A stretch of 64,000 bases of DNA from Nonomuraea cavernae. GTDB taxonomy: Bacteria; Actinomycetota; Actinomycetes; Streptosporangiales; Streptosporangiaceae. Shown one piece after another: positions 13,208-25,918 of the stretch. The stretch covers positions 258,615-322,614 of the forward strand of contig NZ_BMNH01000001.1 in the NCBI RefSeq assembly GCF_014646355.1, read 5' to 3'. A model generated the notes under the pieces. The model was not told the origin of the DNA, did not search any database, and saw only the letters and a program-made list of their open reading frames with translations. Each line of letters begins with the position of its first letter. The stretch's first letter is position 1. The position numbers and the translations under genes were made by a program.

Positions 13208-13411
13208 GCCCACGAGTGGCGACGGGCGGGCGGGTGCGGGCGACCTGGCGCCGCCGGCGGCGTGAGACCCGGCGGCTGAGACCAGGGGGCGTCTTCCCCG
13301 ATGGCCGTGCTGACGACGCGCCGCCGGTCGCGTACACGCCTGTGGCGGAACGAACTTCGGCCGTGTAGCCGGCGAGCGGAACCCCTGGCCTGGAAATTCC
13401 GAAAGAATCCC

Positions 13412-14320
13412 ATGGTGGAGTCAGGAGCGAACGGCGCCGACGACGCGGGACCCGGCTACGGCATCGGAGCGGTCGCGCGGCGGCTCGGCGTGCCCGCGCC
13501 CACGTTGCGCACCTGGAACCAGCGCTACGGCCTGGGACCGAGCCGCCGCAGCCCGGGCGGTCACCGGCGCTACGACGAGGGTGACCTGCTGCGCCTGGAG
13601 GAGATGAACCGGCTGATCAAGTCCGGCATCGCGCCCGCCGACGCGGCCGCCCAGGCGCTGCGCCTCTCCCTGCCCTCCCCTCCCGCGGAGGCTCCTGCCG
13701 GGCCGCGGGGGGTGGCGGTGCCGTCGATGGCGCGGCTGGCGCGGGCGGCCGACGCGCTCGACGGCCCCACCGTCGCCGCCGCCGTGGCCGCCGCACTCGA
13801 CAGCCGCGGCGTGCGCTGGACCTGGCAGGAGCTGGTGCTGCCGGTCTTCGACCGGATCTGCCGCACGCAGGCGCGCACCGGCTCGGGCATCGACGTCGAG
13901 CACCTGTTCTCCGACCGGCTGCTCGCCGAGCTGCACCGCTACGCCGAGCGCCACCCGGTGCCGGTGACCGGCAGGGCCGTCCTGCTGGCCTGCGCCGAGG
14001 ACGAACAGCACAGCCTGCCGGTGCACGCGCTGGCCGCCGGGCTGGCCGAGCGGGGCGTCGACGCGCGGACACTGGGCGCGCGGGTGCCCAACTCGGCGCT
14101 GGCGACCGCGATGCGCCGGCTCGGGCCGGCCGTGGTGTTCGTCTGGTCGCAGCAGGAGACGACCGGTGATCCGGCCCCGCTCGCGGCGCTGCCCGCGCTG
14201 CGGCCTCCGCCCCGGCTCGTCGTGGGCGGAAACGGCTGGTGGGAGCCGCTGCCGCGCGGGGTCGTACGGGTTCACAGCTTCGACGAAGCCGTCTCGGCCG
14301 TGCTGGACGCACTGGACTGA
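13412..14320 (+). CDS. litR: LitR/CarH-like MerR regulator with a B12-binding-type C-terminal domain
   Basis: The 302-residue protein has an N-terminal MerR winged helix (YGIGAVARRLGVPAPTLRTW, then SPGGHRRYDEGDLLRLEEMN) and a C-terminal region shaped like cobalamin-binding light sensors. It has a helical bundle with IDVEH, then LLACAEDEQHSLPVHALAAG, whose histidine would be the lower axial ligand of B12. It sits immediately upstream of an ECF sigma gene and crtEIB. This is the order of the light-inducible litR-litS-crt locus of Streptomyces coelicolor (established knowledge), so I infer control of carotenoid synthesis by light. The tryptophan of the usual W-x9-EH motif appears to be a glutamine here. 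Confidence 0.8.
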   Translation: MVESGANGADDAGPGYGIGAVARRLGVPAPTLRTWNQRYGLGPSRRSPGGHRRYDEGDLLRLEEMNRLIKSGIAPADAAAQALRLSLPSPPAEAPAGPRGVAVPSMARLARAADALDGPTVAAAVAAALDSRGVRWTWQELVLPVFDRICRTQARTGSGIDVEHLFSDRLLAELHRYAERHPVPVTGRAVLLACAEDEQHSLPVHALAAGLAERGVDARTLGARVPNSALATAMRRLGPAVVFVWSQQETTGDPAPLAALPALRPPPRLVVGGNGWWEPLPRGVVRVHSFDEAVSAVLDALD

Positions 14321-14399: not shown

Positions 14400-14879
14400 G
14401 TGGGGGCCGACCAGGTTTCCGAGATCTACCGCACCCATGCGCCCTCCGTGCGGACGTACCTGCGCAGGTTCGTCCCCTCGCAGGACGTGGACGACATGCT
14501 GCAGGTGGTCTTCACCGAGGCGTGGCGCTCGCGCGACCGCTACGACCCCGGGCGCAGCCCGCGCGCCTGGCTGCTGGGCATCGCGCACAAGCGCGCGGTC
14601 GACCACCTGCGGCGCAGAAGGCCGCACACGGTCCCGCTCGACGACGCGGCCGAGCCCGCCGGAGACGACGGGCGAACCGGCGCCACCACGCTGGCCGAGC
14701 GTGACCGCCTGCACCGTGCGCTCGCCGAGCTGCCCGTGGCCCAGCGTGAGGCGATCGTGCTGGCCTACTACGCCGGCCTGAGCCAGCGGGAGATCGCCGA
14801 ACGACTCAGCATCCCGCTCGGCACGGTCAAGGCCAGAACCTCCCGTGGCCTGCACCGGCTGGCGACGCTCCTGACCTGA
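14400..14879 (+). CDS. litS: ECF sigma factor, LitS-like
   Basis: The 159-residue protein starts at GTG 14400, with GGGAGG 8 bases upstream. Region 2 reads VDDMLQVVFTEAWRSRDRYD and PRAWLLGIAHKRAVDHLRRR. Region 4 reads LPVAQREAIVLAYYAGLSQ, followed by REIAERLSIPLGTVKARTSR as the helix-turn-helix. Its place between a LitR-like gene and crtE argues that it directs transcription of the carotenoid operon, as LitS does in Streptomyces. No anti-sigma gene is present, in line with control by the upstream repressor instead. Confidence 0.85.
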   Translation: MGADQVSEIYRTHAPSVRTYLRRFVPSQDVDDMLQVVFTEAWRSRDRYDPGRSPRAWLLGIAHKRAVDHLRRRRPHTVPLDDAAEPAGDDGRTGATTLAERDRLHRALAELPVAQREAIVLAYYAGLSQREIAERLSIPLGTVKARTSRGLHRLATLLT

Positions 14880-14995
14880 CCCGAGAGGAAGCCGTTGATC
14901 ATCAGTTCTTTACGCGCCCCCGGACGCCTCGATACCGGCGATCGGGCACGGGTGTGAAACAGATGCGAAGCGTTCGCGACGGAGGAGTGGCATCC

Positions 14996-16048
14996 ATGAC
15001 CGCGGTGACTTCTCGGGCCGACACCGTCCGCGAGCTGATCGACGACCGCCTGGAGAAGTTCCTCGACAGGCAGGGCGACGGGCTCGCCTTCCTGGGACAG
15101 GACGCCGAGCCGCTGCGCGACTTCCTGACCGGCTTCGTGCGCGACGGCGGCAAGCGGCTGCGGCCGTCGTTCGTCTACTGGGGACACCGGGCGGCCGGCG
15201 GCACGGACGACCGGCTCGACGCGGTCCTGGCGGCGGGCTGCGCCATCGAGATCATGCACGCGGCGGCGCTGCTGCTCGACGACGTCATGGACCAGGCGGA
15301 CGCCCGGCGCGGCCGGGTCAGCGCGCACCTCGCCCTGGCCGACCGGCACCGGGAGTCACGCTGGCAGGGCGATCCCCGCCGGTTCGGCGAGTCGGCCGCG
15401 ATCCTGCTCGGCCTGCTGGCCTTCACCTGGGCCGACGCCGCCCTGCTCGACACCGGCGACGACCTCGGCCCGGCGCTGGAGGTCTTCACCCTGCTGCGCC
15501 AGGAGGCGATCGGCGGCCAGTACCTGGACCTGGCCTGGACCGCGCGCGGCACGGTGGGCGTGCGGCAGGCGGCGCACATCTCGGTCTACAAGACGGCCAA
15601 GTACACCATCGAGCGGCCGCTGCACCTCGGCCACGCCATCGCGCGGGGCACCCCGGAGACCCGGCGGCGGCTGAGCTCGTACGCGATCCCGCTGGGCGAG
15701 GCGTTCCAGCTGAGGGACGACGTGCTGGGCGTGTTCGGCGACCCGGCCGGCACCGGCAAGCCCGCCGGGGACGACCTCCGGCAGGGCAAGGCCACCTACC
15801 TCCTCGCGCAGACCCGCGCGCGGGCCGGGCGCGACGCCGCGCTCCTCGACCACCTGCGTGACGAGGACGACCTCGCCGCCGCGCGCGAGCTGATCGTGTC
15901 CTGCGGCGCCCTGGCGGCGGTCGAGGAACGCATCGCCGAGCTGGTCGGCGAGTCCACGGCCGCGCTGGCGGTCGCCCGCGAGCTGCCGGCCGACGCCGTG
16001 GTCGCCCTCGCCGACCTCGCCGGCCTGGCCACCGAGAGGACGTTCTGA
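14996..16048 (+). CDS. crtE: Geranylgeranyl diphosphate synthase (polyprenyl synthetase)
   Basis: The start at ATG 14996 follows GGAGGAG (14981-14987) by 8 bases, giving 350 residues. The first aspartate-rich motif is in LLLDDVMDQADARRG (DDxxD) after GGKRLRPSFVYWG. The second is FQLRDDVLGVFGD. It makes the C20 precursor for CrtB. Its stop overlaps the crtI start (TGATG). The 117-bp gap from the sigma gene should hold the sigma-dependent promoter, but I could not recognise a convincing -35/-10 pair. Confidence 0.93.
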   Translation: MTAVTSRADTVRELIDDRLEKFLDRQGDGLAFLGQDAEPLRDFLTGFVRDGGKRLRPSFVYWGHRAAGGTDDRLDAVLAAGCAIEIMHAAALLLDDVMDQADARRGRVSAHLALADRHRESRWQGDPRRFGESAAILLGLLAFTWADAALLDTGDDLGPALEVFTLLRQEAIGGQYLDLAWTARGTVGVRQAAHISVYKTAKYTIERPLHLGHAIARGTPETRRRLSSYAIPLGEAFQLRDDVLGVFGDPAGTGKPAGDDLRQGKATYLLAQTRARAGRDAALLDHLRDEDDLAAARELIVSCGALAAVEERIAELVGESTAALAVARELPADAVVALADLAGLATERTF

Positions 16049-17514
16049 TGAGCCGGCACGCGCCCGTGGTGGTGGTCGGCGCCGGCCTGGGCGGCCTGGC
16101 CGCCGCCGTCCGTCTCGCCGCGGCCGGTCGCGAGGTGACCGTGGTCGAGGCGGCCGACGGCCCCGGCGGCTGCTGCGGCACCGCGAGCGCCGGCCCGTAC
16201 CGGTTCGACACCGGCCCGTCGGTCCTGACCATGCCGGGCGTGCTGGCCGACACGTTCGCCGCCGCCGGCGAGGACCTCGCGTCCTGGCTGCCGCTGCGCC
16301 GCCTCGACCCGGCCTATCGGCTGGCCTTCCACGACGGCTCCCACCTGGACATCGTGTCCGAGCGGGAGGAGATGGCCGAGCAGGTGCGACGACTCTGCGG
16401 CCCGGCCGAGGCCGGCCGTTACCTCGCCTACCGGCGGCGGCTCGGTGAGCTGTTCGAGGCGGAGTGGCCCGCGTTCATCGACGCCGACATGACCCGGGCG
16501 CGCGCTCTGGTCCGGCCGCTGACCCTGCTCAGGCTGGCCGCCCTCGGCGGCTTCCGGCGGCTCGACCGGCTCGCCGCCGCCCACCTCACCGACGAGCGGC
16601 TGATCAGGGCCCACACCTTCCAGGCCCTGTACGTGGGCCTGTCACCGCAGCGGGCACTCGGCATCTACGCGGTGATCGCGCACATGGACACCGTCGGCGG
16701 CGTCTACTTCCCCGAGCGGGGCGGCATGCACGCCATCCCGCGCGCGCTGGCCGCCCTGGCCGAGAAGAAGGGCGCCTGCCTGCGCTACGGGGTGCGCGCC
16801 AGCCGGGTCGAGGCGGACGGCGACGGCGTCACGGGGGTACGGCTCGACGGGGGCGAGTGGCTGCCCGCGAGCCACGTGGTGGTCGCCTGCGACCTGCCCG
16901 CCGCCCGCGCGGCCCGGCTGCTGCCCGAACGGGCCGTCGACTGGCGCTGGCGCCGCCCCCGCTTCTCGCCGTCCTGCCTGGTGCTGCACGCCGGGCTCGA
17001 CCACGAGCTGCCCGACCAGGCACACCACACCGTGCACTTCGGGCGTACCTGGAAGGAGACCTTCAGCGCCCTGGAGAACGGGCAGCCACAGCCGGACCCG
17101 AGCCTGCTGATCACCTGTCCGCGCGACGCCGACGCCGCGCCCGCCGGGCACGCCACGCTCAGCGTGCTGGAGCCCGCCCCCAACCTGACGGGCGCCGACT
17201 GGCGGCGGCTCCGGCCCGAGCTGGAGCACCGCCTGCGCGAGCGGCTGTCCGGCCTCGGCTACGGCACCCTGTCCGACGCCCCCGGCCTGGTCCTGGACCC
17301 GCCCGCCTGGCAGCGGCTCGGGCACAGCGCGGGCACCCCGTTCGCACTGGACCATCGCTTCACCCAGACCGCCTGGTTCCGCCCGTCCGGCATGGCCAGG
17401 CGGGTTCCCGGGCTGCACTTCGCCGGCATGTACACCGCTCCGGGAGTGGGCGTGCCGCCGGTGCTGATCTCCGGCCGGCTGGCCGCCGACCGCATCCTGG
17501 AGGCCGCGCGATGA
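16048..17514 (+). CDS. crtI: Phytoene desaturase
   Basis: This 488-residue flavoprotein opens with VVVVGAGLGGLAAAVRLAAA (FAD-binding GxGxxG), then TVVEAADGPGGC and RFDTGPSVLTMPGV. It ends with the bacterial desaturase motif LHFAGMYTAPGVGVPPVLIS, the second dinucleotide region. It is expected to introduce double bonds into phytoene to give neurosporene or lycopene. It overlaps crtE at its start and crtB at its end by a few bases, so the three are translationally coupled. Confidence 0.93.
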   Translation: MSRHAPVVVVGAGLGGLAAAVRLAAAGREVTVVEAADGPGGCCGTASAGPYRFDTGPSVLTMPGVLADTFAAAGEDLASWLPLRRLDPAYRLAFHDGSHLDIVSEREEMAEQVRRLCGPAEAGRYLAYRRRLGELFEAEWPAFIDADMTRARALVRPLTLLRLAALGGFRRLDRLAAAHLTDERLIRAHTFQALYVGLSPQRALGIYAVIAHMDTVGGVYFPERGGMHAIPRALAALAEKKGACLRYGVRASRVEADGDGVTGVRLDGGEWLPASHVVVACDLPAARAARLLPERAVDWRWRRPRFSPSCLVLHAGLDHELPDQAHHTVHFGRTWKETFSALENGQPQPDPSLLITCPRDADAAPAGHATLSVLEPAPNLTGADWRRLRPELEHRLRERLSGLGYGTLSDAPGLVLDPPAWQRLGHSAGTPFALDHRFTQTAWFRPSGMARRVPGLHFAGMYTAPGVGVPPVLISGRLAADRILEAAR

Positions 17515-18410
17515 CGCTCACCGCCAGCTACGAACGCTGCCGCCGGCTGCACGCCGGCTACGGCCGCTCCTACTACCTGGCCACCCGCCTGCTGCCCGCG
17601 TGGAAGCGGCGGCACGTGCACGCCCTGTACGGCTTCGCCCGCCACGCCGACGAGATCGTCGACTCCTTCCTCGTGACCGGCGACCGGGCGGGCGCGCTCA
17701 ACACGCTGGCCGCCGAGGTGGCCGCCGGGCTGGCGGGCGAACGGGTGCGCGACCCGGTGCTGCCCGCCTTCCTGCACACGGTCCGCTCCTTCGGCGTCGC
17801 CCGCGACGACATCGACGCCTTCCTGCGCGCGATGCGCGCCGACCTGTCGGTGACCCGCTACCAGAGCTACGACGACCTGCTCGGCTACATGGAGGGCTCG
17901 GCGGCCGTCATCGGCACCATGATGCTGCCGATCCTGGAGCCCGTGTCCGGCGCGGAGGCGCGGGCCCGCGAGCCCGCCCGCCAACTCGGCCTGGCCTTCC
18001 AGCTCACCAACTTCCTCCGCGACGTGTCAGAGGACCTCGCCAGGGAGCGCGTCTACCTGCCGCAGGAGGACCTGGCCAAGTTCGGGGTCGAGGAGGAGGA
18101 CCTGCGCCGGGCGCACGCCGGGCCCGCCGTACGAGAGCTGCTCGCCTTCGAGGCGGACCGGGCGCGCGAGCACTACCGCGCCGCCGCCGAGGGCATCGAG
18201 CTGCTCGTGCCCTCCTCACGGCCGTGCGTGCGCGCCGCCGTGGAGCTGTACGGCGGCATCCTCACCGAGATCGAGCGCGGCGGCTACGACGTGCTGGCCC
18301 GGCGGGCACGGGTGCCGCGCCGCCGCCGGGTCGTCACCTTCGCCCGCCACCTGATCGCCTCGGCCTCGACCGGCCGGGCCGAACGCCTGCTGCGGCTGGA
18401 GCCATCTTGA
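17511..18410 (+). CDS. crtB: Phytoene synthase
   Basis: The 299-residue protein starts at ATG 17511, inside the crtI stop (ATGA). The two Mg-binding motifs of squalene/phytoene synthases are present: HADEIVDS (DxxxD region) and FQLTNFLRDVSEDLARERVY. It condenses two geranylgeranyl diphosphates to phytoene at the membrane surface. It ends in TTGA, from which a downstream TTG could start the next gene. Confidence 0.94.
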   Translation: MTLTASYERCRRLHAGYGRSYYLATRLLPAWKRRHVHALYGFARHADEIVDSFLVTGDRAGALNTLAAEVAAGLAGERVRDPVLPAFLHTVRSFGVARDDIDAFLRAMRADLSVTRYQSYDDLLGYMEGSAAVIGTMMLPILEPVSGAEARAREPARQLGLAFQLTNFLRDVSEDLARERVYLPQEDLAKFGVEEEDLRRAHAGPAVRELLAFEADRAREHYRAAAEGIELLVPSSRPCVRAAVELYGGILTEIERGGYDVLARRARVPRRRRVVTFARHLIASASTGRAERLLRLEPS

Positions 18411-18484: not shown

Positions 18485-19480
18485 ATGCCGACCGTCGTGA
18501 TGCCGACCGTCGTGGTGGACGCGATGGGTGGCGACCACGGCCCGGCCGAGACCGTGGACGGCGCCGTGCGCGCCTGGCGCGAACACGGCGTGCCCGTGCT
18601 CCTCGTCGGCCGCGAGCCGCTGCTGCGCGACCGGCTGAACCGGCTCGGCGCGGCCCGCGACGTCGGCGTGGTGCACGCGCCGGACGCCGTCCCCATGGCC
18701 GAGCCCGGCGCGCGCGCCGCCGCCAGCGCCTCCTCCAGTCTCGTGATGGGCTGCGACCTGGTGCGGCAGGGCGCGGGAGGCGCCTTCGTGTCGGCCGGGT
18801 CCACCGGAGCGGTCGTCGCCTGCGCCGTGCGCGGGATCGGCCGGGCCGAGGGCGTCCTGCGGCCCGCGCTGGCCGTGGCATTGCCGTCCCTGGGAGGCGG
18901 AGCCAGCGTGCTGGTCGACGCCGGGGCGACCGCCGACCCCACACCGGAGATGGTCGGCCAGTTCGCGCTGCTCGGCGCGGCGTACGCGCGGGTCGTGCTG
19001 GGCGTCGCCGACCCGGTGGCGGGGCTGCTGTCCATCGGCTCCGAGCCCGGCAAGGGCAACCGGCTGGCCCGCCGCGCCGCCGAGATCCTGCCCGGCCTGC
19101 CGGTGCGCTTCCACGGCAACATCGAGGGCCACGACGTGCTCGCCGGCACCGTGGACGTGATCGCCACCGACGGCTTCACCGGCAACGTCGTGCTGAAGAA
19201 CGTCGAGGGCACCGTACGCGCCGCGCTCGCCATGGTCGCGGACTCCGGGATCGCCTCGCCCGCCCAGCTCGCCGGGGTGGCGGCCCGCTACGACCCGCGC
19301 ACCCACGGCGGCGCCGCCCTGCTCGGGCTCAAGGGCACCGCGGTCGTGGCCCACGGCTCCGCCACGGCCGCCACCATCGCCCGCGCCTGCGTGGTGGCCC
19401 ACGACCTGGCCCGCGCCGACGTGGCGGCCCGGATCACCTCACAAGTCGCAGCGCCTCTCGCCACGGAGCCGGTGCCGTGA
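18485..19480 (+). CDS. plsX: PlsX-like phosphate acyltransferase in the carotenoid operon
   Basis: The protein starts MPTVVMPTVVVDAMGGDHGP; VDAMGGDHGP is the diagnostic PlsX N-terminus. Further family features are AFVSAGSTGAVVA, IDxGAT-like VLVDAGATAD, GNIEGHDVL and ATDGFTGNVVLK. PlsX makes acyl-phosphate from acyl-ACP for phospholipid synthesis, and its gene normally lies with fabD/fabH/acpP or rpmF, not with crt genes. I took ATG 18485 (331 residues) because GGGGG lies about 9 bases upstream. ATG 18500, or a TTG at 18407 overlapping the crtB stop, are alternatives. The start region carries small tandem duplications (GTGATGCCGACCGTC twice). Confidence 0.88.
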   Translation: MPTVVMPTVVVDAMGGDHGPAETVDGAVRAWREHGVPVLLVGREPLLRDRLNRLGAARDVGVVHAPDAVPMAEPGARAAASASSSLVMGCDLVRQGAGGAFVSAGSTGAVVACAVRGIGRAEGVLRPALAVALPSLGGGASVLVDAGATADPTPEMVGQFALLGAAYARVVLGVADPVAGLLSIGSEPGKGNRLARRAAEILPGLPVRFHGNIEGHDVLAGTVDVIATDGFTGNVVLKNVEGTVRAALAMVADSGIASPAQLAGVAARYDPRTHGGAALLGLKGTAVVAHGSATAATIARACVVAHDLARADVAARITSQVAAPLATEPVP

Positions 19481-19482
19481 CC

Positions 19483-19665
19483 AGATCACCCGCTCCCGGT
19501 GCCGGTGCCGGTGCCGGTGCCGGTGCCAGATCACCCGCTCCCGGTGCCGGTGCCGGTGCCAGATCACCCGCTCCCGGTGCCGGTGCCGGTGCCAGATCAC
19601 CCGCTCCCGGTGCCGGTGCCGGTGCCGGTGCCAGATCACCCGGTCCCGCTCCCGGTGTGGGTGCC
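19483..19665. repeat. Minisatellite of five units with internal GGTGCC hexamer variation
   Basis: Each unit begins AGATCACCCGCTCCC and continues with GGTGCC repeated 5, 3, 3 and 4 times (units of 45, 33, 33 and 39 bp at 19483, 19528, 19561 and 19594). A fifth, degenerate 33-bp unit begins at 19633. It fills the gap between the convergent stops of the plsX-like and crtA-like genes and forms the last codons of the latter. Every unit holds a TCA that reads as a stop on the reverse strand. Unit number is likely to vary between strains. Confidence 0.92.
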
Positions 19666-20457
19666 GACGCCGAAGCCGGCGAGGGGGTCGGCGCCGTTCC
19701 AGGCGCCCTGGCTTCCGTACGGGGTGAAGCGGGCGAACAGCTCCTCGCCGTACCAGTCGTGGGCCCGTACGCGGGTGATGACCGTCCGGTGGTCGGCGGT
19801 GCGGTAGGCGAAGTCGCGGACGGCGTGCGCGTCGCGCCACAGGGAGAAGGTGGCCTGGCGGGCCAGCGGCCACTCGCCGATGCCGACCGAGGCCAGCAGT
19901 CCCTCCTGCTCGCGCAGCGCCTGGTCCACCGCCGGAACCGCACGGTAGAACGCCGCCAGCCGACCGATCCGGATCGACGCCCGCGTCAGCACCGCCACGG
20001 GCCCGGCCGCGTCCTGTCCGACGGCCCCGGCGAGACCGGTTGCATCCTGTCCGGCGGCGCCGGGCGATGTCACCCCAGCGGCGACAGTGGGCCGCCCGGC
20101 CTGGGTGAAGGGGGCGAACGGGTCGATGCCGCCCCAGGCTCCACGGGCGGCCAGCGGGCGCAAGCGGACGTGCCAGGACTCCCGCGCCTCGTCCCGCCAG
20201 CGGCCCGCGATCGGCGAGCGCCGCAGGAAGTCGTCCAGGTCCGGCTCACCACGCCAGACCGCGAACAGGGCCCAGCGGCGCAGATCGGCTCCCAGCGACA
20301 TGCTCGGGCCCCGGCCGGTGCCCAGCAGCCGCCAGAACCGCAACCCGCCGATGCTCCGCAGCACCGGCCGGTCGAAGGCCATGTGGCGCATCGCGCCGAC
20401 GGTGTCATATCGGATGAGGTGGAACGAAGCGATGGTCGCTGTGCTGGTGTCGCTCAT
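19636..20457 (-). CDS. crtA: Spheroidene monooxygenase-like carotenoid ketolase
   Basis: The 273-residue protein starts MSDTSTATIASFHLIRYDTV. It shows the pattern I know from CrtA proteins: FWRLLGTGRG, then RRWALFAVWR, WHVRLRPLAARGAWGG, VAVLTRASIRIGRLAAFYRAVP, IGIGEWPLARQATFSLW near VGIGEW, and a C-terminal DWYGEELFARFTPYG. CrtA inserts a keto group at C-2 of acyclic carotenoids. An extra alanine/glycine-rich insert (residues ~123-150) interrupts the middle. The C-terminus runs into the minisatellite. The gene is head-to-head with, and overlaps, the plsY-like gene by 26 bases. Confidence 0.82.
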   Translation of the reverse strand: MSDTSTATIASFHLIRYDTVGAMRHMAFDRPVLRSIGGLRFWRLLGTGRGPSMSLGADLRRWALFAVWRGEPDLDDFLRRSPIAGRWRDEARESWHVRLRPLAARGAWGGIDPFAPFTQAGRPTVAAGVTSPGAAGQDATGLAGAVGQDAAGPVAVLTRASIRIGRLAAFYRAVPAVDQALREQEGLLASVGIGEWPLARQATFSLWRDAHAVRDFAYRTADHRTVITRVRAHDWYGEELFARFTPYGSQGAWNGADPLAGFGVGTHTGSGTG

Positions 20458-21028
20458 CGGTGGCTACCTGGCCGGCTCGGTGCCGGTCGCCCTGCTGGTC
20501 GCGCGCGCCCACGGGTTCGACCCCCGGGAGGTGGGCGACCGCAACCCGGGCTTCTGGAACATGAAGGAGCAACTGGGCTGGCGGGCCGCGGTGCCGGTGT
20601 TCGCCGGTGACACGCTGAAGGGCACCGCGGCGGGGCTGCTCGGCCTGTTCGCCGGAGGCGGGCACGTCGGCGAGTGGGCGGTCGTGGTGCCGCCGAGTGT
20701 GCTGCCCGTGTACGTGGCCGTGGCGGGGGCCATGCTCGGCCACGCCTGGCCGGTGTTCGCCGGGTTCCGGGGCGGTCGCTCGATCCTCGCCTTCGCCGGG
20801 GGTGTCGCCGTCATCTGCCTGCCCGCCTTCCTGCTGGCCGTTCTGGCGCTGGTGCTCGTCTCCCTGGTGACCCGGTCGTTCGCCGTAGGTGCCAGGGTCG
20901 CCGTGTTCGGTGTGCCGGTGTTGCACCTGCTGTTCGTCCCCGCCCCGCAGGTGGCCGCGACGGGCGCGCTGCTCTGTCTCATCGGCCTGCGCTTCGGGCA
21001 GGCCGCCCTGGCCTCGCAGCGCCCCTGA
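20432..21028 (+). CDS. plsY: Divergent PlsY-like acyl-phosphate acyltransferase, integral membrane
   Basis: The 198-residue protein has several membrane segments and the three PlsY motifs in altered form: GGYLAGSVPVALLVAR followed by GDRNPGFWNM (consensus GSGNPGATN), GDTLKG (consensus DxLKG), and GHAWPVFAGFRGGRSILAFA (consensus GHxFPVFxxFKGGKGVAT). PlsY moves the acyl group of acyl-phosphate onto glycerol-3-phosphate. The changed lysines and glycines suggest a different acceptor. ATG 20432 has GAGGTGG 8 bases upstream. With the PlsX homologue this makes a complete acyl-phosphate route inside a carotenoid locus. Confidence 0.83.
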   Translation: MVAVLVSLIGGYLAGSVPVALLVARAHGFDPREVGDRNPGFWNMKEQLGWRAAVPVFAGDTLKGTAAGLLGLFAGGGHVGEWAVVVPPSVLPVYVAVAGAMLGHAWPVFAGFRGGRSILAFAGGVAVICLPAFLLAVLALVLVSLVTRSFAVGARVAVFGVPVLHLLFVPAPQVAATGALLCLIGLRFGQAALASQRP

Positions 21029-22229
21029 CCGCCGGCGGGTAGGTGCGGCCCCGCCAGGTGCGGACCGGGCGCAGCGTGGCCTGCGTCAGGCGGACCGCCG
21101 TGGCGGGGTCGAGCAGCGGTGAGAGCCACAGGCCGACGCCGGGCCGGGTGTAGCTGCCGCGCAACGCCCCGGCCAGCAGCCACCGTACGGCCAGCAGCGC
21201 CAGGTCGAGCCGGGACGGGCGGCCGATCGCCAGCCGCAGCACGGGCAGCGCGGCGGTCAGCCAGACGACCGCCAGATCGGCCGCCTGCCAGCCGGGCCCG
21301 GTCACGTCCCGCAGCGGCAGCGACCGGCCCCACTCGCGCCAGAGCTCCGCCGTCGAGTCGTGCATGTCGACCTCCAGCAGCGCCCCCGCGTCGAGGAACG
21401 CGACCGACCAGCCCTCACCCGCCAGATGGCGGGCCAGCGCGACGTCGTCGGTCATCCGGTCGCGCACCCGGGCGAACCCGTCGGCCGCGAGCATCCGCTC
21501 ACGCCGGAACGCCATGCACTGGCCGTTGGCGACCGCGCGGTGCGGCGCGGGCGGAGTGGCCGGGCCGATGGGGCCGAACCGGTAGACCAGCGTCGCCAGC
21601 ATCGACGCGTGCGACGCCTGCTCCAGGCCGCCGTCGCAGCTGAACCGAGGTCCCACGGTGACCAGGTCGCGGCCGTCGAGCGCGGCGGCCACCGCTCCGA
21701 ACAGGCCAGGGTCGGGCCGGGCGTCGGCGTCCAGCGTGATGACCACGTCCCCCCGCGCCGCGGCCACTCCCTGGCGCAACGCCCACTGTTTGCCGACCCA
21801 CCCGGCGGGCAGCGGGGCGCCGGTGACCACCTTGGCGCCCAGGGACGCGGCCAGCGCCGCCGTGCCGTCGGTCGAGCCGTCGTCCACGACGATCACCTCG
21901 TCGACGTACGGGTCGGCGAGCGCCGCCCGCAGGCACGGCCCGATCCGCCGCTCCTCGTCCCGCGCCGGCACCACCACGGAGATCCCCTCGCCCCGGCCCT
22001 CCTCCTCACGTGGCGGCACTCCCGCAAAGATCCCCCGGTCGGCCCGCCCGATCCGGGCCGCCTCGCCGGGCGCCTTCATGGCCCGCGCCCGAACCTCACC
22101 GGACAGCCGGTCGTCAGCGGGTGGCGTGGCGGGACGCAGGGGCGGCAGGCGGTCGCGGCCTCGGGCGAGACGGGCGGCGACGACGACGGCCGCGACGGCC
22201 TGGGCGACGACAAGCGGCCGAATCCTCAC
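20979..22229 (-). CDS. GT2 family glycosyltransferase, CruG/CruC-like (carotenoid glycosylation)
   Basis: The 416-residue protein begins at GTG 22229, overlapping the desaturase stop (GTGA). It has an N-terminal hydrophobic segment, then the GT-A fold: ISVVVPARDEERRIGPCLRA, VDEVIVVDDGSTDGTAALA, and ITLDADARPDP (DxD). ANGQCMAFRRERMLAADGF and MTDDVALARHLAGEGW follow, then two C-terminal hydrophobic stretches. Linkage to cruF and a desaturase suggests that it glycosylates a carotenoid hydroxyl, as CruG does in cyanobacterial myxoxanthophyll synthesis. Its end overlaps that of the plsY-like gene by 50 bp. Confidence 0.8.
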   Translation of the reverse strand: MRIRPLVVAQAVAAVVVAARLARGRDRLPPLRPATPPADDRLSGEVRARAMKAPGEAARIGRADRGIFAGVPPREEEGRGEGISVVVPARDEERRIGPCLRAALADPYVDEVIVVDDGSTDGTAALAASLGAKVVTGAPLPAGWVGKQWALRQGVAAARGDVVITLDADARPDPGLFGAVAAALDGRDLVTVGPRFSCDGGLEQASHASMLATLVYRFGPIGPATPPAPHRAVANGQCMAFRRERMLAADGFARVRDRMTDDVALARHLAGEGWSVAFLDAGALLEVDMHDSTAELWREWGRSLPLRDVTGPGWQAADLAVVWLTAALPVLRLAIGRPSRLDLALLAVRWLLAGALRGSYTRPGVGLWLSPLLDPATAVRLTQATLRPVRTWRGRTYPPAVRGAARPGRPARSAGR

Positions 22230-23803
22230 CGGCCCCCCCTTTCGTCGACAGCCCGAGCGACCGATCGGCCCTCCGGTTCGCCGTGAGCCCGACCGCCCGA
22301 TCGGATCTCCCCGGCCACGCGAATCCGGGAGCCCGGTCGGTCATCACGTCTCGGCGACGCCGCCGTGGGGAAGTCCTGGGCGACGAGCCCGGCCACGATG
22401 CGGGCGCCCAGGGTGACCATGGGCAGGCCGCCGCCGGGGTGGGCGGAGCCGCCCACGAGGTAGAGGCCGCGCCGGGGGCCCCGGTTGCCGGGCCGCAGGA
22501 ACGGCGAGAGCGTCCCGTGGGTGGCGGCGCCGTAGATGGCTCCGCCCCAGGCTCCGTAGCGGTCGCGCAGGTCGGCGGGGGTGAAGGTGTCCACGAAGCG
22601 CAGCCGCCCGGCCAGGTCGTGGCCGCGCTCGGCGAGCCGTTCCAGCACGAGATCCCGGTACGACTCCACGGACACCGGCCACCGCCCCGGATCGCGGGCG
22701 GGCACGTTGACGAGCAGGACCTGGTTCTCGGCGCCGTCCGGCGCCTGCGACGGGTCGTCGACGGCCGAGCAGCCGATGTAGACGGTCGGGTCGCGCGGCG
22801 GCACGCGGCGTTCGAAGATGTCGGCGAACTCCTGCCGGTAGTCGGCGGAGAAGACGATCGAGTGGTGCGCCAGCCCGGGGGTGCGGCCTTCGACGCCGGC
22901 CAGCAGCAGCAACACCGACGAGGACCGGCCCAGCCGGGCGATCCGGCGCAGCCGCCGCCGGTGCGGCAGCAGGTCGCCGTACAGGCTCGCGGCGTCGGTG
23001 TTGGCCACCACGATGTCGGCGGGCACCCGCTCGCCACCTGCCAGCCGCAGCCCGGTGACGCGGTCGCCGTCGGCGGTGATGGCGGCCACCGGAGCCGACA
23101 GGTGCACCTCGACGCCCGCCTTGTCCAGCAGCGCCGCCAGGTCGTCGGCCAGCCGGGGCAGGCCGCCGGGCACGTACCAGCCGCCCTGGCCGTGCTCCAG
23201 GGCGGGGATGCAGCCGAGCGCGGCGGGCGCCCGGTGCGGGTCGGAGCCGGCGTAGGTGGCGTAGCGGTCGACGTACTGGACGAGGCGCGGGTCGCGGAAG
23301 TGGCGGCGGGCCAGGCCGTGCAGGGTGCGGCCGGGCGCGACTGCGAGCAGGTCGGCCGGACGGGCCTGCTCGGGAGGGCGGGTGAGGGGTCCGGCGAAGA
23401 AGGTACGGCCGGCGGCGGCGAGGCAGCGGCCGGCCCACGCGTGGAAGGCCCGCCAGGCGGCGCCCTCCCCGGGGGCGAGGCGGTCGACCTCGGCGGCCAT
23501 CTCGGCGGGGTCGCGCCGGGCGGTCAGCCGGGAGCCGTCGGCGAACCGGTAGCGGCACAGCTCGGCCGGTTCGATCAGCTCCCGTTCCAGCCCGAGCTCG
23601 CGGAACACGTCCGGCATGGTGAGCAGCGAGGGGCCGAGGGAGAAGGTGAACCCGTCGCGACGGTGCTCGGCGAGCTTGCCACCGAGCCGGGGCAGCCGTT
23701 CGTACAGCCGGACCTCGTGGCCCCACCGGGCCAGCAGGAGCGCGGCGGCCATGCCGCCGAAGCCGCCGCCCACCACGGTCACCGAAGCCACAGCCGCCTC
23801 CAT
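22226..23803 (-). CDS. CrtI-family carotenoid desaturase, probably CrtD-like (3,4-desaturase)
   Basis: From ATG 23803 the protein has 525 residues. The N-terminal FAD motif is VTVVGGGFGGMAAALLLARW, followed by LYERLPRLGGKLAEHRRDGF and FSLGPSLLTMPDVFREL. The C-terminal motif YLVGGSAHPGGGLPMVTLGA is the family's second nucleotide-binding signature. It is a second paralogue besides crtI and sits between cruF and a glycosyltransferase. It therefore most likely desaturates a 1-hydroxy-carotenoid next to the hydroxyl. It overlaps the end of cruF by 25 bases. About 45 C-terminal residues are low-complexity and arginine-rich. Confidence 0.85.
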   Translation of the reverse strand: MEAAVASVTVVGGGFGGMAAALLLARWGHEVRLYERLPRLGGKLAEHRRDGFTFSLGPSLLTMPDVFRELGLERELIEPAELCRYRFADGSRLTARRDPAEMAAEVDRLAPGEGAAWRAFHAWAGRCLAAAGRTFFAGPLTRPPEQARPADLLAVAPGRTLHGLARRHFRDPRLVQYVDRYATYAGSDPHRAPAALGCIPALEHGQGGWYVPGGLPRLADDLAALLDKAGVEVHLSAPVAAITADGDRVTGLRLAGGERVPADIVVANTDAASLYGDLLPHRRRLRRIARLGRSSSVLLLLAGVEGRTPGLAHHSIVFSADYRQEFADIFERRVPPRDPTVYIGCSAVDDPSQAPDGAENQVLLVNVPARDPGRWPVSVESYRDLVLERLAERGHDLAGRLRFVDTFTPADLRDRYGAWGGAIYGAATHGTLSPFLRPGNRGPRRGLYLVGGSAHPGGGLPMVTLGARIVAGLVAQDFPTAASPRRDDRPGSRIRVAGEIRSGGRAHGEPEGRSVARAVDERGGR

Positions 23804-24537
23804 CCCAGCGCCGCGAACGTGCCCATCGCCACCCCTCCCACTGCCGCGACGAGCGGATCGGGCGGCTGGAACACCGCCGCGAAGCCGAGCGTCTCCATCG
23901 CGGCCATCGTCGTGTACAGCGCCGGCAGCCCGGCGCGGGCCGGGCGGTCGGGCCCGGCGATCCGCCGGACGACCACCATGACCAGTAGGGACACCAGAAG
24001 CCAGCCGGCCAGGTTGCTCAGCGGGACGCCGCGGTAGGGGCCCGGCTCGGCCCACACCCACAGCCCCAGCCGCAGCATCTGCGGGTCGAGGAACAGGTCC
24101 CACGCGGTCAGCGCCAGCGCGCCGACCACCACGCCGGCCCGCCCTCCGACGGTGGCGCCGATCCCGTACGCGGCCAGCCCCATGCCGCCCCAGGCCAGCG
24201 CCACCACCAGCGGCACCCCGCCGACCTGCGGCCACAGCGCGCCGGTGTAGTGGTAGGCGCCGAACGGGAACCCGGTGTGGACGCCGACCAGCTCGGCCAG
24301 GTAGCCGACCGCCACCGCCGCGCCGAAGGCGGCCACGGCCCGCGGCCGGCCCAGCGCCGCCGCCGCGAAGCCCACGGCGCTCACCGCCAGCAGCGCCACG
24401 ACGACACCGGTGAACGGCAGCGGGTCGTCGCTCAGCCCGGACATCACCTGGGCGGCGACCATGGCGCACAGGAACACCGCGCCCAGCGCCTGACCCAGCG
24501 CGGGCCGGGTGACGGGTGCATCGCGAAGAGCGTCCAT
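23779..24537 (-). CDS. cruF: CruF-like carotenoid 1,2-hydratase (DUF422), membrane protein
   Basis: The 252-residue protein has 7-8 hydrophobic segments and the family landmarks ELVGVHTGFPFGAYHYTG, VPLVVALAWGGMG, and LTAWDLFLDPQM. The conserved His, Tyr and Asp residues there mark the CruF/DUF422 hydratases, which add water across the C1-C2 double bond of psi ends. It heads the reverse-strand block cruF - desaturase - glycosyltransferase. The 217-bp gap to the divergent aminotransferase (24538-24754) should carry promoters for both directions. No clear palindrome was found in it. Confidence 0.87.
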   Translation of the reverse strand: MDALRDAPVTRPALGQALGAVFLCAMVAAQVMSGLSDDPLPFTGVVVALLAVSAVGFAAAALGRPRAVAAFGAAVAVGYLAELVGVHTGFPFGAYHYTGALWPQVGGVPLVVALAWGGMGLAAYGIGATVGGRAGVVVGALALTAWDLFLDPQMLRLGLWVWAEPGPYRGVPLSNLAGWLLVSLLVMVVVRRIAGPDRPARAGLPALYTTMAAMETLGFAAVFQPPDPLVAAVGGVAMGTFAALGWRRLWLR

Positions 24538-24754
24538 GTCCTGATCCTTCGGATCCGGGCGGCGCTCGGTTGCGTCGCATCCGGGTCGCTTCCATGCTCT
24601 CCAGGCGTTGTGCGGGGGTTACTACCGAACCGCCGACATGGGGGAATCTTTCCGCTCCGGTCTGTCACGCGCCGGAACCGGAGGCGCCGGGCTGAACCGG
24701 TCGGTGCGCGGGCGCGTACCTCCACACGTCCGGACCCGCGTCCATGGAGGTGTC

Positions 24755-25918
24755 GTGGAGCTCAGCCTCTTGCGTACACAGGCGCACAGCCCTTCGTACT
24801 TCTCACTGCTGCGCGGGTCCTCCGGGCAGCGGGCCCCGGTCGACTTCTGCATCCCGTGCAACCCGTACTTCCCGACGCCGGAGATATTCGAGCATCTCGG
24901 GCGGAACCTGGAGACGATCCTCAAGTTCTATCCCAGTGGCGCGGACACGATCACCGCGGAGCTCTGCTCCACCCTCGGCCTTCACCCCCAGACGGTCGCC
25001 ATGGGCAACGGCTCCACCGAGCTGATCACCTGGATCGACCATCTGCTGGTGCGCGGCAGCCTGGCGGTGCCGATCCCCACCTTCGGCCGGTGGACCGACC
25101 AGCCGCTGGAGACGGGCAAGCGGGTCGACATGTATCCGCTGCTGGAGAGCCGCAACTTCGCCCTCGACGTGAACGACTACGTGTCCTTCGTCCGCATGCG
25201 CGGCTCACGCGTGGCTGTGATCTGCAACCCCAACAACCCCGACGGCGGCTACCTGCCGAAGCACGAGGTGCTGCGGCTGCTCGACCAGCTCATCGACCTG
25301 GACCTGGTGATCGTGGACGAGTCGTTCGGCGACTTCGTGGACGCCGAGCCGTATCCGGGGGTGGCCGCCGAGGCGGCGGTGCGGCCGAACGTGATCGTGC
25401 TGCGCAGCCTGGGCAAGAACTTCGGGCTGCACGGCATCAGGTTCGGCTACCTGGTCGCCAACCCGGCCCTGGCCGGCAAGGTGAGGGACGCGCTGCCGAA
25501 GTGGAACCTCAACTCGTTCGCCGAGGTCGTGGTGTTCATGATGAAGCAGTGCATGGGCGAGTACCAGGAGAGCCTGAGGCGCCTCAGCCAGGACCGGCGG
25601 GTGATGTTCCAGCAGCTCAGCACCATGCCGGAGCTGTCGGTCTACGCCTCGCAGGGCAACTTCCTGCTGGTGAAGCTACCCCCGGGGTATGACGGGGTGC
25701 CCCTGCGCGACCACCTGCTGACCGAGCACGGTGTGTACGTCCGCGAGTGCGGCAACAAGCTGGGCACCACCAGCCAGTTTCTCCGGCTGGTGGTGCGCCC
25801 TCAGGAGGACGTGCGGCGGCTGCTGGTCGGCATGACGCAGTTCCTTTATTCGGGCAGCCTGCACGAGATGCCCGTCATCGGCCTGCACCACCGGGCGGTC
25901 AACCCGTTGTCCGCCTGA
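24755..25918 (+). CDS. PLP-dependent class I/II aminotransferase (histidinol-phosphate aminotransferase/CobD-like)
   Basis: Read from GTG 24755 (GGAGG 4 bases upstream) the protein has 387 residues. Fold type I features are seen: YPSGADTITAELC, VICNPNNPDGGYLPKHEVLR (substrate and PLP-ring contact), DLVIVDESFGDF, and LRSLGKNFGLHGIRFGYLVA, whose lysine should bind PLP. Specificity is not determined by these motifs. It lies beside, and divergent from, the carotenoid block, but an aminotransferase has no obvious role there. Confidence 0.85.
   Translation: MELSLLRTQAHSPSYFSLLRGSSGQRAPVDFCIPCNPYFPTPEIFEHLGRNLETILKFYPSGADTITAELCSTLGLHPQTVAMGNGSTELITWIDHLLVRGSLAVPIPTFGRWTDQPLETGKRVDMYPLLESRNFALDVNDYVSFVRMRGSRVAVICNPNNPDGGYLPKHEVLRLLDQLIDLDLVIVDESFGDFVDAEPYPGVAAEAAVRPNVIVLRSLGKNFGLHGIRFGYLVANPALAGKVRDALPKWNLNSFAEVVVFMMKQCMGEYQESLRRLSQDRRVMFQQLSTMPELSVYASQGNFLLVKLPPGYDGVPLRDHLLTEHGVYVRECGNKLGTTSQFLRLVVRPQEDVRRLLVGMTQFLYSGSLHEMPVIGLHHRAVNPLSA

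Follow-up and report, generated by a model that had tools for sequence, protein, structure and literature searches.

A PlsX and PlsY pair in an actinomycete carotenoid locus and its predicted role in the acylation of carotenoid glycosides

A carotenoid locus of Nonomuraea cavernae lies in a stretch of 64,000 nucleotides of contig NZ_BMNH01000001.1 (positions 258,615 to 322,614 of the forward strand), referred to here as the window. Inside this locus are a plsX-like and a plsY-like gene, one on each side of a crtA-like gene; the full order is MerR regulator, extracytoplasmic function (ECF) sigma factor, crtE, crtI, crtB, plsX, crtA, plsY, family 2 glycosyltransferase (GT2), crtD and cruF. A preliminary description, made from the letters of the window, had already pointed to this arrangement, which the Pfam and NCBIfam matches of the pair and of its neighbours bear out. 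Judged from sequence, the locus probably has a dedicated acyl-phosphate pathway, in which acyl-phosphate formed by PlsX would serve PlsY for the acylation of a carotenoid glycoside, the product of the GT2. The two proteins are called crt-PlsX and crt-PlsY below.

In the proposed mechanism, crt-PlsX would move an acyl group from acyl-acyl carrier protein (acyl-ACP) to phosphate, as is expected from its family. In the membrane, crt-PlsY would then move the acyl group from acyl-phosphate to a hydroxyl of the sugar on the carotenoid, yielding a carotenoid glycoside fatty-acid ester, and would fill the role that CruD or PlsC-like acyltransferases have in other bacteria. The balance of evidence leans towards a PlsY subfamily, of the Streptosporangiales and of some Actinomycetota outside the class, that has exchanged glycerol-3-phosphate as acceptor for the sugar on a carotenoid, with a dedicated PlsX gained in the Streptosporangiales. 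To our knowledge, no other PlsY has a non-glycerol acceptor. If this is correct, an acyl-phosphate-dependent acyltransferase acts on a pigment independently of CruD, CrtO or a PlsC-like enzyme. A PlsY subfamily with the pocket lost and some acyl-phosphate residues kept would show that this unusual acyl-phosphate chemistry can be retargeted. It would fill in, for a large actinomycete group, a missing step in the acylation of carotenoid glycosides, would explain the second plsX in these genomes, and would open a function of acyl-phosphate beyond phospholipid synthesis to direct tests.

Relatedness and altered sites of crt-PlsY and crt-PlsX

crt-PlsY scores 104 bits against Pfam G3P_acyltransf (cut-off 24.1) and 78.2 bits against the NCBIfam PlsY equivalog, below its cut-off of 137.2. 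An AlphaFold2 model made with 46 sequences has a mean predicted local distance difference test score of 91.9 and matches PlsY crystal structures with Z 21 to 22 and a template modelling (TM) score of about 0.77 (5xj6: Z 21.6 over 186 residues, root-mean-square deviation 3.7; 5xj7: TM 0.77), the following entry having Z 6.6. There was no clear score to other fold families in this structure comparison, a list that proves no absence. Of the 69 sequences in a PlsY tree, the 39 of crt type (34 of the 110 family-type rows and five from outside the class) all fall on one side of a branch with a Shimodaira–Hasegawa-like approximate likelihood ratio (SH-aLRT) of 99, at which, as the method warns, long branches meet; the canonical rows were 23 motif-chosen of 30.

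The acceptor and donor sites of PlsY have been described in Aquifex (PMC5700162). Of glycerol-3-phosphate, the phosphate is bound by S35, R45, K104 and N180 and the 2-hydroxyl by S142 and H177. The acyl-phosphate is held by H92, T41, which binds the carbonyl, and the backbone amides of 104–107, and N37 probably steadies the intermediate. The glycerol-3-phosphate pocket is described as highly invariable, and little activity is left in S35A (4.8%), R45A (1.1%), H177F (0.32%), N180A (4.6%) and T41A (4.8%). Among 7,288 PlsY homologues, D occurs at S35 in 2.7%, R at K104 in 2.6% and F at H177 in 1.0%; the sections of that paper considered here assign no function to these variants.

These positions were read in 110 crt-PlsY rows, 89 of them distinct over residues 21–170 (some genomes were fetched twice); one protein of canonical type (L085) was left out. 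For comparison, 30 PlsYs of the phylum were picked by coordinates with no motif filter, and all 30 have S35, R45, K104, H177 and N180. In crt-PlsY, the S35 position is D and the K104 position is R in every row, R45 is lost in 107 rows (E in 94, Q in 7, D in 4, G in 2) and kept in three, and the S142 position is A in 91. In 106 of the 107 rows that could be matched, the C-terminal segment contains neither H nor N; the remaining one (L210) is a false match, and three further rows gave no match. Since the C-terminal columns are unaligned in the 110-row set, the loss of H177 and N180 is taken from this segment reading and from an earlier alignment in which a one-residue shift is possible. N37, H92 and the GG loop (G102, G103) are kept in 110/110. 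The protein of the window itself has D, E and R at S35, R45 and K104.

crt-PlsY is thus, on its sequence, a PlsY paralogue that has lost the glycerol-3-phosphate clamp and kept key acyl-phosphate residues, and the comparison with canonical PlsY structures that the preliminary description proposed agrees with its idea of altered acceptor motifs. The three motifs it named, GDRNPG, GDTLKG and FRGGRSILAF, are all present. GDTLKG, however, barely differs from the canonical form (Aquifex LDFLKG) and carries little information; what sets crt-PlsY apart is GDRNPGFWN..E, GGRSxL and the lack of the C-terminal H..N motif. The acidic and aromatic residues that it has gained would be in keeping with a sugar-binding site.

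crt-PlsX lies above the curated cut-offs of both Pfam FA_synthesis (256.1 bits; cut-off 29.1) and the NCBIfam plsX equivalog (251.6; 243.4). It is separated from housekeeping PlsX by a branch with SH-aLRT 100 in a tree of 32 of the 97 crt rows and 30 housekeeping rows. Among 103 columns conserved in at least 97% of the 30 housekeeping PlsXs, 73 are kept in at least 90% of the 32 crt rows and 30 are not. The tip of the helix bundle, between the GFTGN and HGGA motifs, is about ten amino acids shorter in crt-PlsX, with medians of 40 residues for crt-PlsX (31 rows) and 50 for housekeeping PlsX (27 rows); four rows without a match, one of them crt and three housekeeping, were left out. In Bacillus subtilis, the helix-bundle region of PlsX carries an amphipathic peptide that places the protein on the membrane (PMC6702220). 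Given that this peptide sits in the shortened region, one might guess that crt-PlsX docks differently, perhaps on PlsY.

In sum, the pair resembles the PlsX/PlsY phospholipid pathway (Aquifex PlsY 5xj5-5xj9; B. subtilis PlsX 1vi1, 6a1k) in having both families, the PlsY fold, and N37, H92 and the GG loop. It differs in the lost clamp, the separate clades, the setting in a pigment locus and the shortened PlsX tip.

Distribution in the genome, the family and beyond

In the N. cavernae genome (8.12 Mb, 99.6% complete), another PlsX is encoded on a different contig (C49:23665-24609), and a PF02660 search found no second plsY, so that the further copies for which the preliminary description proposed to look were found for one gene of the pair only. 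The family was sampled with 150 genomes, this one included, of which 130 are of good quality. PlsX (PF02504) is present in 145 of the 150, yet the PlsY family (PF02660) in 33 (30 of the 130 of good quality) and PlsB (GPAT_C) in three of 100, this genome not among them. PF02660 has no match in the other 117 genomes, two of which belong to the same genus. At least two PlsXs are found in 26 of the 33 genomes with PlsY and in 2 of the 117 without it (G047, G084), so that an additional PlsX accompanies PlsY.

Because most genomes of the family lack PlsY, the plsY of the window is not a housekeeping gene merely for being the sole copy. For PlsX, the housekeeping explanation is rejected, since the genome has another copy and crt-PlsX forms a separate clade; for PlsY it is disfavoured by the distribution, by the tree and by canonical PlsYs that coexist with the crt type in four genomes outside the class. 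The view of the preliminary description that the pair are not the housekeeping copies is therefore supported. The phylogeny does not show the outcome that it had named as refuting, a place inside the canonical clade: both crt-PlsY and crt-PlsX are separated from the canonical sequences. It is very improbable that the two enzymes still make lysophosphatidic acid, as a housekeeping activity or as a supply of membrane accompanying the pigment. crt-PlsY being the only PF02660 protein of this genome and the scarcity of PlsB would fit such a role; the loss of the clamp residues, the many genomes of the family that do without PF02660 and the separate canonical PlsYs outside the class speak against it. 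PlsB, with its few occurrences, was rejected as the glycerol-3-phosphate acyltransferase of the family. Five PF01553 proteins encoded elsewhere in the genome are candidates for that function here; the contig of the window (C1, 847 kb) has no PF01553 match.

Linkage of crt-PlsY to carotenoid genes is conserved. In 29 of the 32 other family genomes with PlsY, the gene lies within a crt block; of the other three, G114 has a PlsY of canonical type, and in G079 and G117 the fetched stretch contains no crt gene. Three of the 29 blocks (G009, G016, G108) lack PlsX, and in G017 it would lie past the contig end. A profile of the 29 crt-PlsYs was then used to scan genome contigs, and the best 80 of the 130 relatives found were kept. 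Both scan patterns were PlsY peptides, so linkage to crt genes was not selected for; the mapping of loci covered homologues of 13 window genes. The 80 kept loci come mostly from Nonomuraea, Actinomadura, Streptosporangium, Microbispora, Planobispora, Sphaerisporangium and their kin, with one metagenome-assembled genome of Acidimicrobiales. CrtA, PlsY and GT2 occur in this order and on alternating strands in 80/80, and PlsX is also present in 71; one of the nine loci that show none (L240) is cut by a contig end. Across 341 family genomes, 113 have a cluster-type CruF and 105 of these also crt-PlsY, as counted per genome and not by position, with ten CruF matches of at most 42% identity and the PlsY matches of G079 and G114 omitted. 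In one genome (G603), PlsY is present and CruF would lie past the contig end. The eight genomes with CruF that lack PlsY comprise two cut by contig ends (L283, L284), counted neither way, five with GT2 only, such as those of loci L279-L282, and one without GT2, PlsY or PlsX.

In G079, two further PlsY-family genes flank a same-strand frame of 255 amino acids without a Pfam match (L076 9392-11396), and the 20 kb fetched contain no crt homologue. This is possibly another use of PlsY.

Beyond the family, the crt-PlsY profile was compared with 296 genomes of the phylum. Strong matches (E 6e-36 or better, the next match being 2e-24) were obtained in five genomes outside the class (G305, G262, G180, G270, G227). 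In all of them CrtA adjoins PlsY, GT2 is adjacent or, in G270, 0.8 kb off, and other crt-like genes are nearby. In four of the five, G270 being the exception, another part of the genome encodes a PlsY of canonical type that has the GSGN and H..N motifs. Read by eye, all five crt-PlsYs have D at S35, W at T41, E at R45, and H92. The survey for crt linkage that the preliminary description proposed thus shows it in the family, in the 80 kept loci and in five genomes outside the class, and chance neighbourhood is ruled out. An unlikely possibility is that the pair acylates a different membrane lipid found alongside the pigment, one that is not a carotenoid, such as a glycolipid. Other sugars or polyols would also suit the acidic and aromatic residues of the acceptor site, but the linkage, within the family and outside the class, is to pigment-tailoring genes, in a mapping that covered homologues of 13 window genes and could have missed other recurring genes.

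A third PlsY-like type, with GSGNPG or GTGNPG and GGKGVA, was seen in G180 and G262 (L277 9417-10184 and L278), whose genomes also have the canonical and the crt type. In L277, it adjoins a DegV-family gene.

Dependence on the glycosyltransferase and the proposed acceptor

For GT2, PlsY and PlsX, 81 clusters were compared on a CrtI-CrtD-CrtB tree; six loci with missing or cut genes were left out (L170, L209, L226, L233, L238, L240). GT2, PlsY and PlsX are all present in 69 clusters, GT2 and PlsY without PlsX in six, GT2 alone in five, and none of the three in one. The tree requires at least four changes for PlsY and nine for PlsX. PlsX is also absent in 6/6 readable clusters without PlsY, and PlsY was never seen without GT2 in the mapped loci. 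This order of states would be expected were the sugar attached first and then acylated by PlsY, with PlsX as a helper for which the housekeeping copy can stand in. In the 150-genome sample, three genomes with PlsY and no linked PlsX (G009, G016, G108) carry a single PlsX, from which the acyl-phosphate may come.

In one locus (L158 of G066), the crt cluster is rearranged and has none of GT2, PlsY and PlsX, which makes the strain a natural point of comparison for the proposed acylation of the glycoside.

The preliminary description had left the acceptor open between a carotenoid glycoside and a hydroxyl. Of the two, the sugar of the glycoside, which the GT2 of the window is predicted to provide, is the preferred one, since no mapped locus had PlsY without GT2; the sole GT2-less cluster of the 81 also lacks PlsY and PlsX, and a single cluster is a thin base. 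There is a small chance that PlsY acylates the carotenoid itself, at a hydroxyl set by CruF or CrtA. CrtA, too, is beside PlsY in every kept locus, and the two genes overlap head-to-head in many of them. Against this, besides the association with GT2, CruF would be expected to yield a tertiary alcohol, which is a poor acceptor.

Several observations weigh against acylation of a glycoside by an acyl-phosphate pathway. The T41 position is Trp in 110/110 crt-PlsY rows, so the donor site is non-canonical as well. Outside the class, the K104 position (read by eye) is R in three of the five proteins and kept as K in two (L274, L276), and no PlsX was found in the 20 kb fetched from any of these genomes. 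An independent-pairs test of joint loss had only four pairs and was not significant (median p 0.125). PlsY occurs without linked PlsX in 6/81 clusters, and the five clusters that keep GT2 without PlsY imply that acylation would be optional. The scores of GT2, CrtA, CrtD and CruF fall under the NCBIfam equivalog cut-offs.

The Trp at T41 and the loci without PlsX would also fit a crt-PlsY that uses acyl-coenzyme A or acyl-ACP directly, or that is non-catalytic, with the linked PlsX serving something else. This is quite improbable, given the invariant N37, H92 and GG loop and given that PlsX is found in none of the six readable clusters that lack PlsY.

Acylation of a carotenoid glycoside by crt-PlsY would have parallels in other bacteria. 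Acylated carotenoid glycosides occur in bacteria with CruC and CruD, and in Methylobacterium via a PlsC-like enzyme (PMC2615216, PMC5822342, PMC10448405). CruD is found together with CruC and CruF in Salinibacter and Rhodothermus, and a fused form has been proposed in Thermomicrobium (PMC2615216, PMC5822342). In Methylobacterium extorquens, META1p3664 is a phospholipid-type acyltransferase beside a glycosyltransferase that was recruited for carotenoid acylation, as supported there by gene deletion; it is of another enzyme family, and the parts of the report consulted name no PlsX partner for it (PMC10448405).

The step predicted here, acylation of a GT2-made carotenoid glycoside, is the same as that of CruD, and the candidate differs in being a PlsY homologue with acyl-phosphate as the predicted donor. 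We take CruD to be PlsC-like and PF01553 to be the family of PlsC-type enzymes; no such protein was found in or near the locus on the contig of the window. The open-licence literature, covered by titles, beginnings of abstracts and word counts with partly incomplete result lists, yielded no paper tying PlsX or PlsY to a carotenoid locus, and a description elsewhere is possible.

Organisation of the locus

The genes plsX, crtA, plsY and GT2 lie on alternating strands (Table 1). In the window, the 3' ends of plsY and GT2 overlap by 50 bp, and the 5' ends of crtA and plsY overlap head-to-head by 26 nt (20432-20457), in the form ATG-N20-CAT. As a conserved feature the exact 26-nt overlap holds only in part: it is projected in 65 of 114 loci and has the exact ATG-N20-CAT form in 50. 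There is no room for a promoter between crtA and plsY in the window, and the two interleaved, mutually antisense gene sets may therefore be noncontiguous operons. This would be similar to the noncontiguous operon of Staphylococcus aureus (menE-menC-MW1733-ytkD-MW1731), in which genes of the same pathway are interleaved with a gene of opposite strand (PMC7154746). It differs from that case in being drawn from gene order.

Table 1. Genes of the carotenoid locus, in window coordinates
Feature	Position	Strand	Basis and remarks
MerR-type regulator, LitR/CarH-like	13301..14320	+	Pfam MerR_1; B12-binding 25.2 bits, below cut-off; NCBIfam CarH below cut-off
ECF-type sigma factor	14400..14879	+	Pfam Sigma70_r2 and r4_2
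crtE-like prenyl diphosphate synthase	14954..16048	+	NCBIfam prenyl diphosphate synthase models, every one below cut-off
crtI phytoene desaturase family	16048..17514	+	NCBIfam crtI_fam 407 bits
crtB phytoene synthase	17511..18410	+	Pfam SQS_PSY 255.8 bits
crt-PlsX, predicted acyl-ACP:phosphate acyltransferase	18485..19480	+	Pfam FA_synthesis, NCBIfam plsX
crtA-like carotenoid monooxygenase	19636..20457	-	NCBIfam spheroidene monooxygenase CrtA 171.6 bits, below cut-off 300; zero matches in the Pfam search of window proteins
crt-PlsY, predicted acyl-phosphate-dependent acyltransferase with changed acceptor pocket	20432..21028	+	Pfam G3P_acyltransf; start ATG 20432, stop 21028
Family 2 glycosyltransferase (GT2), CruG/CruC-like	20979..22229	-	Pfam Glycos_transf_2; NCBIfam CruG top match, 227 bits, cut-off 600
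crtD-like carotenoid desaturase	22226..23803	-	NCBIfam crtI_fam 319.8 bits; CrtD 300.7 bits, below cut-off; start taken by eye from reading frame
cruF-like carotenoid hydratase	23779..24537	-	Pfam Caroten_synth 131 bits

The MerR and ECF regulators were set aside as parts of the proposed system, with homologues in only part of the loci. An aminotransferase gene at 24608-25918 was not counted among the parts either, with zero homologues recorded in the mapped loci. The gap at which the 3' ends of plsX and crtA converge (window 19481-19640) is filled with short direct repeats rich in G+C, noticed by eye; they consist of GGTGCC-type units and a longer unit with CCAGATCACCCGCTCCC.

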